Of a stretch of 64,000 nucleotides of DNA, positions 63,159-64,000 are shown piece by piece. The stretch is from an uncultured Porphyromonadaceae bacterium. GTDB lineage: Bacteria > Bacteroidota > Bacteroidia > Bacteroidales > Muribaculaceae. The stretch is from assembly GCA_947175265.1 (NCBI GenBank), contig CAMWMD010000004.1, positions 40,553-104,552 of the forward strand. Direction: 5' to 3'. Position 1 is the stretch's first letter, and each line of letters begins with the position of its first letter. The notes beneath the pieces were generated by a model. The model was not told the DNA's origin. It ran no database searches and saw nothing but the letters and a program-made list of their open reading frames with translations. The position numbers and the translations under genes were made by a program.

Positions 63159-63233
63159 CGGGGCGTAGCGCAGTCCGGTTAGCGCACCTGCTTTGGGAGC
63201 AGGGGGTCGAAGGTTCGAATCCTTTCACCCCGA
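63159..63233 (+). tRNA. tRNA-Pro (anticodon TGG)
   Basis: CGGGGCGTAGCGCAG...CACCTGCTTTGGGAGCAGG...GGTTCGAATCC...ACCCCGA; CCA not encoded; TAATTTTG upstream at 63137-63144. Confidence 0.93.
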
Positions 63234-63258
63234 CAGATTGAAAGGAAGGCCTGGCTTT

Positions 63259-63870
63259 TTAAGCCGGGCCTTCACCTTTTATCCGCTTTCCATAGATGAT
63301 GAACGAACCGTCAGGCTGTATGGCATGCAACCTCCGCAACCAACCGTCGAGATACTTCCACGCTGCCCCGCAACGACGGTAATAACGCTCACGTTCCGTC
63401 ATCAACCTACGGAACATGGCTCCTTGGTCGCCACCATTGATTGCCTTAAGAGACAGAGGTCCTATCTTCCCGTCCGGCACTACCCCGAACAACTTCTGCA
63501 CACGCCTCAACACCCCGGGACCGCTCGCCCATACCCAGTCCACTATCAGATGCGCCAGACCCTGACTTTCGATCCCGTCGGCACCGCACCTATCCCAAAA
63601 CATCCCCTTCAGTATACTCTGCCATTCATCAAACCCTATGTTGCGCAACTCTCCCTTTGTCGCTCGCCTTCCCCTGAAAATTGAAAACGTAGCCAAAGTA
63701 ACATCCACCATAGTCGCACCTCCCGGATCATCCGCATCATCACTCCACCCCCTCAGTTTCGCCAACTCGAAAATATCCCGATCCGGCAAGTCCAACTCAC
63801 AACCATCCTTCCCGAACACTCCACCCGCGAAGTGACACACAAACGGTATCATATATCTGAAATCAGCCAT
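63259..63870 (-). CDS. GH108-like N-acetylmuramidase / peptidoglycan-binding protein
   Basis: MADFRYMIPFVCHFAGG..ELDLPDRDIFELAKLRGWSDDADDPGGAT; VQKLFGVVPDGKIGPLSLKAI; start moved inward because the track start lies in adapter-like sequence. Confidence 0.75.
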   Translation of the reverse strand: MADFRYMIPFVCHFAGGVFGKDGCELDLPDRDIFELAKLRGWSDDADDPGGATMVDVTLATFSIFRGRRATKGELRNIGFDEWQSILKGMFWDRCGADGIESQGLAHLIVDWVWASGPGVLRRVQKLFGVVPDGKIGPLSLKAINGGDQGAMFRRLMTERERYYRRCGAAWKYLDGWLRRLHAIQPDGSFIIYGKRIKGEGPA

Positions 63871-63920
63871 AATAAAAAAATTAAAAACACACTCCAAAAT
63901 TACCACCATCCCCCCCACCC

Positions 63921-63983
63921 GGGCTCGGATACACATAGCCGAGCCCACGAGACGGAGAGGAAGGACGGGAGCGGGGGGGGGGG
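63921..63983. other. probable Illumina Nextera adapter and poly-G artefact
   Basis: GGGCTCGG-ATACACAT-AG-CCGAGCCCACGAGAC then low-complexity sequence with G11. Confidence 0.9.
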
Positions 63984-64000
63984 TGGAAATAAATATGTGT

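Follow-up and report, generated by a model that had tools for sequence, protein, structure and literature searches.

Illumina Nextera libraries provide the closest described counterpart of the sequence reported here. A read that passes beyond its insert in such a library continues into the Read-2 transposase adapter, composed of the mosaic end and the handle, then into the i7 sample index and the P7 tail (CTGTCTCTTATACACATCTCCGAGCCCACGAGAC-i7-ATCTCGTATGCCGTCTTCTGCTTG; the reference adapter sequence is as published, PMC5827657). Two-colour chemistry leaves G without a label (PMC11140927), and decay of base calls towards G is therefore the expected failure in late cycles. The adapter pattern occurs at least 86 times in public bacterial and archaeal contigs; of the 86 matches listed, 77 are no more than 60 nt away from where the retrieved DNA ends, and a known Nextera index and ATCTCG come next in most of the listed matches. 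Among the results listed by our literature searches, none dealt with Nextera remnants at the ends of contigs.

The DNA analysed here (henceforth referred to as ‘the window’, 64,000 nt) is G000:C4:40553-104552, where C4 is a contig of 104,552 bp in a draft assembly of 95 contigs. Window base 64000 is C4 base 104552 and hence the physical end of the contig, which is the location characteristic of Nextera read-through contamination and a place where adapter remnants are to be expected. We compared the end of the window, without gaps, with the Nextera read-through sequence CTGTCTCTTATACACATCTCCGAGCCCACGAGAC-NNNNNNNN-ATCTCGTATGCCGTCTTCTGCTTG, which could be fitted to 63920-63985. The features of this region and of the adjoining gene are as follows:

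63259..63870, minus strand: glycosyl hydrolase 108 / peptidoglycan-binding endolysin-like gene (Pfam, phrog_315, homologues)
63871..63948, minus strand: spurious N-terminal extension of 26 codons, MGSAMCIRARVGGMVVILECVFNFFI before MADF (homologue alignment and adapter translation)
63920..63953, plus strand: Nextera Read-2 transposase adapter (mosaic end and handle) with base-calling errors (28/34 identical, ungapped, to CTGTCTCTTATACACATCTCCGAGCCCACGAGAC)
63954..63961, plus strand: i7 sample index N712 (GTAGAGGA), seen as GGAGAGGA (7/8, a single T>G)
63962..63985, plus strand: P7 tail ATCTCGTATGCCGTCTTCTGCTTG, mostly decayed to G (9/24 identical)
63986..64000, plus strand: 15 bases of presumed base-calling noise past the end of the library molecule (from their position after the P7 end)

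The best placement of the 34-nt mosaic end and Read-2 handle in the window is at 63920, with the runner-up reaching 20/34, and the six mismatches comprise five T>G and one C>A. As the original prediction stated, the letters ATACACATAGCCGAGCCCACGAGAC are present at 63929-63953 and are close to the Nextera Read-2 adapter. The 8 nt directly behind the handle correspond to N712 of the published index table (PMC7589761). When handle and index were combined into a single model, 35 of 42 positions matched at 63920, compared to at most 23 of 42 elsewhere in the window on both strands; when the tail was shuffled 2000 times, the score did not exceed 23. The sequence CCGAGCCCACGAGAC has a single copy in the window, where chance would give 0.04, and a single copy in the genome as a whole. 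Across handle and index, T was altered at 6 of 9 positions compared to 1 of 33 positions for the other bases (Fisher p 1e-4). In the P7 stretch that follows the index, 13 of the 15 mismatches are changes to G (from T, C or A), and the run of 11 G that had been noted before lies inside this decayed tail, at 63973-63983; taken alone, the P7 match is weak (against shuffles, identity gives p ~0.006 and consistency p ~0.015). Adapter, index and P7 follow one another in the correct order and without gaps. The end of the window shares order, spacing, handle and index sequence and contig-end location with Illumina Nextera read-through but, unlike the intact adapter, it is degraded, with G called for T and for C, and carries a poly-G tail.

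Two further contigs of the same assembly, whose contig ends were surveyed by pattern search only (with mismatches allowed for the handle), carry comparable sequences. A second copy of the Read-2 handle was found on the minus strand at the start of C13 (G000:C13:1-400, first 90 bases), where the unaltered index GTAGAGGA, an error-containing P7, poly-A and poly-G or G-rich noise come after it; N712, which at C4 was recognised despite a one-base error, is thus intact at the end of C13. The start of C42 (minus strand; G000:C42:1-400, first 99 bases) contains poly-G with a run of 19 G, poly-A, P5, ATAGAGAG (the reverse complement of the i5 index S502) and the Read-1 Nextera adapter. Beyond P7 and P5, respectively, the tails of C13 and C42 turn to poly-A and then to G-rich noise. 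Since N712 is found on C4 and C13 and S502 on C42, the library probably carried the indices N712/S502. A mosaic-end-like CTGTCTCTTATAAACAA at G000:C45:3-19, no more than 3 bases from the contig start, is probably another short adapter remnant. C74 (G000:C74:1-500) begins with poly-G and A/T-rich noise in its first ~125 bases; this noise is adjoined by GAAGTCCATATTACTATATAAAAGTGGAGAGTC, which recurs near the end of C13 as one arm of a long hairpin, and these two contig ends thus share sequence. Of 110 further genomes belonging to this genus, two contain the adapter, located at or a few bases from a contig end and bearing T>G as well as C>A errors (G107:C308 end and G007:C91 end). In all three altered copies (the window, G107:C308 and G007:C91), the CATCTCC part shows a shared C>A change.

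The adapter-index-P7 order, the position at the contig end and the barcode shared with a second contig lead us to assign a probability of about 0.985 to a Nextera adapter read-through, left at the contig end by way of a short fragment on a two-colour instrument. On this view, sequencing of a short Nextera (XT-type) fragment, presumably on a two-colour Illumina instrument, would have run beyond the insert and on through the Read-2 adapter and the i7 index N712 to the P7 end; signal would have been lost over the cycles such that T and C were called G and the tail turned into poly-G. The read may have escaped trimming because the five T>G and the one C>A changes fall in the 19-nt mosaic end sought by trimmers, and the assembler would then have extended the contig end with such an untrimmed read, or possibly several. 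Two points fit this explanation less well, namely that simple signal loss does not account for the C>A and T>A changes and that the P7 part matches at only 9 of 24 positions. Terminal adapter contamination had been proposed in the original prediction and is borne out here, although its start, placed there at 63905, moves to about 63920. The bases from 63920 to at least 63985 are read-through into the Nextera adapter and not bacterial DNA; the read-through would reach 64000, making the last 81 bases artefactual, and the true genomic end could lie a few bases before 63919.

The same region contains an apparent inverted repeat (63921-63931 / 63936-63946; 11 nt, 91%, with a 4-nt loop) that is present as letters, and the alternatives to read-through concern how it arose. 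If adapter contamination included a fold-back or dimer, GGGCTCGG at 63921-63928 would be a true inverted copy of CCGAGCCC in the handle, of which it is indeed the exact reverse complement, and the original prediction had described it as a reverse-complement piece of the adapter. The neighbouring bases, however, do not extend a reverse-complement adapter, for which GGGCTCGGAGATGTG would be expected, whereas CGGGCTCGG at 63920-63928 is in register with the mosaic-end start CTGTCTCTT, from which it differs by T>G alone (4 of 5 T called G), and the same error recurs in the index and in P7. The location of GGGCTCGG was thus given correctly, but it is most likely CTGTCTCTT misread by T>G. As the in-register errors explain GGGCTCGG better, we rejected the idea that the left arm arose by fold-back or from a dimer, which we regard as very improbable.

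Far less probable still is a genuine genomic hairpin that would lie upstream of the endolysin gene as a terminator or a regulatory element: the length and identity of the repeat and its short loop would suit such an element, but it would leave unexplained the 42-nt match to adapter and index, the additional P7 and the identical barcode at another contig end, and the sequence is single-copy, stands at the contig terminus and is not present in the upstream regions of three relatives of the same genus. That a genuine short genomic inverted repeat should by coincidence resemble the Nextera adapter, the index and the P7 tail is the least credible of these explanations. No copy of the C4 end region was found elsewhere in the genome. 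Because CGGGCTCGG differs from CTGTCTCTT in register by T>G alone, the apparent hairpin derives from miscalls, and is most likely an accident of these rather than a fold-back, in agreement with the earlier view of the repeat as artefactual.

The last open reading frame lies on the minus strand and starts with MGSAMCIRARVGG; it had been described as ending at 63948, which is in fact where it begins, with a GTG, while its end is at 63259. Judged by its sequence, it is a real GH108 endolysin-like gene: PF05838 (GH108; E 1.5e-12, 48.3 bits) and PF09374 (PG_binding_3; E 6.3e-7, 29.9 bits) both exceed their curated cut-offs (21.2 and 24.6 bits, respectively), and the product matches the phage endolysin family phrog_315. 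Three homologues from the same genus (56, 57 and 40% identical) align from the methionine at 63870 (MADF/MANY/MADI), none of them contains the adapter-derived N-terminal part, and in one of them the mechanical open reading frame begins 10 codons earlier, at a GTG. The true start is thus likely the ATG at 63870 (MADFRYMIPF...), and the N-terminal extension is spurious, as had been suspected. It consists of adapter (63920-63948) and intergenic DNA (63871-63919), and roughly the first 10 of its 26 residues are adapter-encoded. In the frame of this open reading frame the canonical adapter translates, at the same reverse-complement position, to LVGSEMCIRD, from which the observed LVGSAMCIRA differs by E>A and D>A owing to base-call errors.

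Both the hairpin and the added N-terminus of the last gene are therefore artefacts, there is no new biology in the feature, and its relevance is limited to data quality: bases 63920-64000 ought to be removed, the start of the last gene should be moved to 63870, and at least two further contig ends of the assembly need like trimming. Where T is miscalled as G in the mosaic end, an adapter can escape exact-match screens and look like a hairpin.

In the related genome G022, a gene starting MDFSKIELDVHTHT, which we take to be a putative PHP-type phosphoesterase, lies divergently upstream of the endolysin gene; a homologue was sought in the genome of the window as a continuation past C4 and not found. 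In the window, tRNA-Pro(TGG) at 63159-63234 is followed by the convergent endolysin-like gene, and a copy next to recQ is also present in G022. Possible origins of the tRNA-Pro and endolysin-like locus are a prophage of which this is a remnant, or a lysin that has been domesticated.
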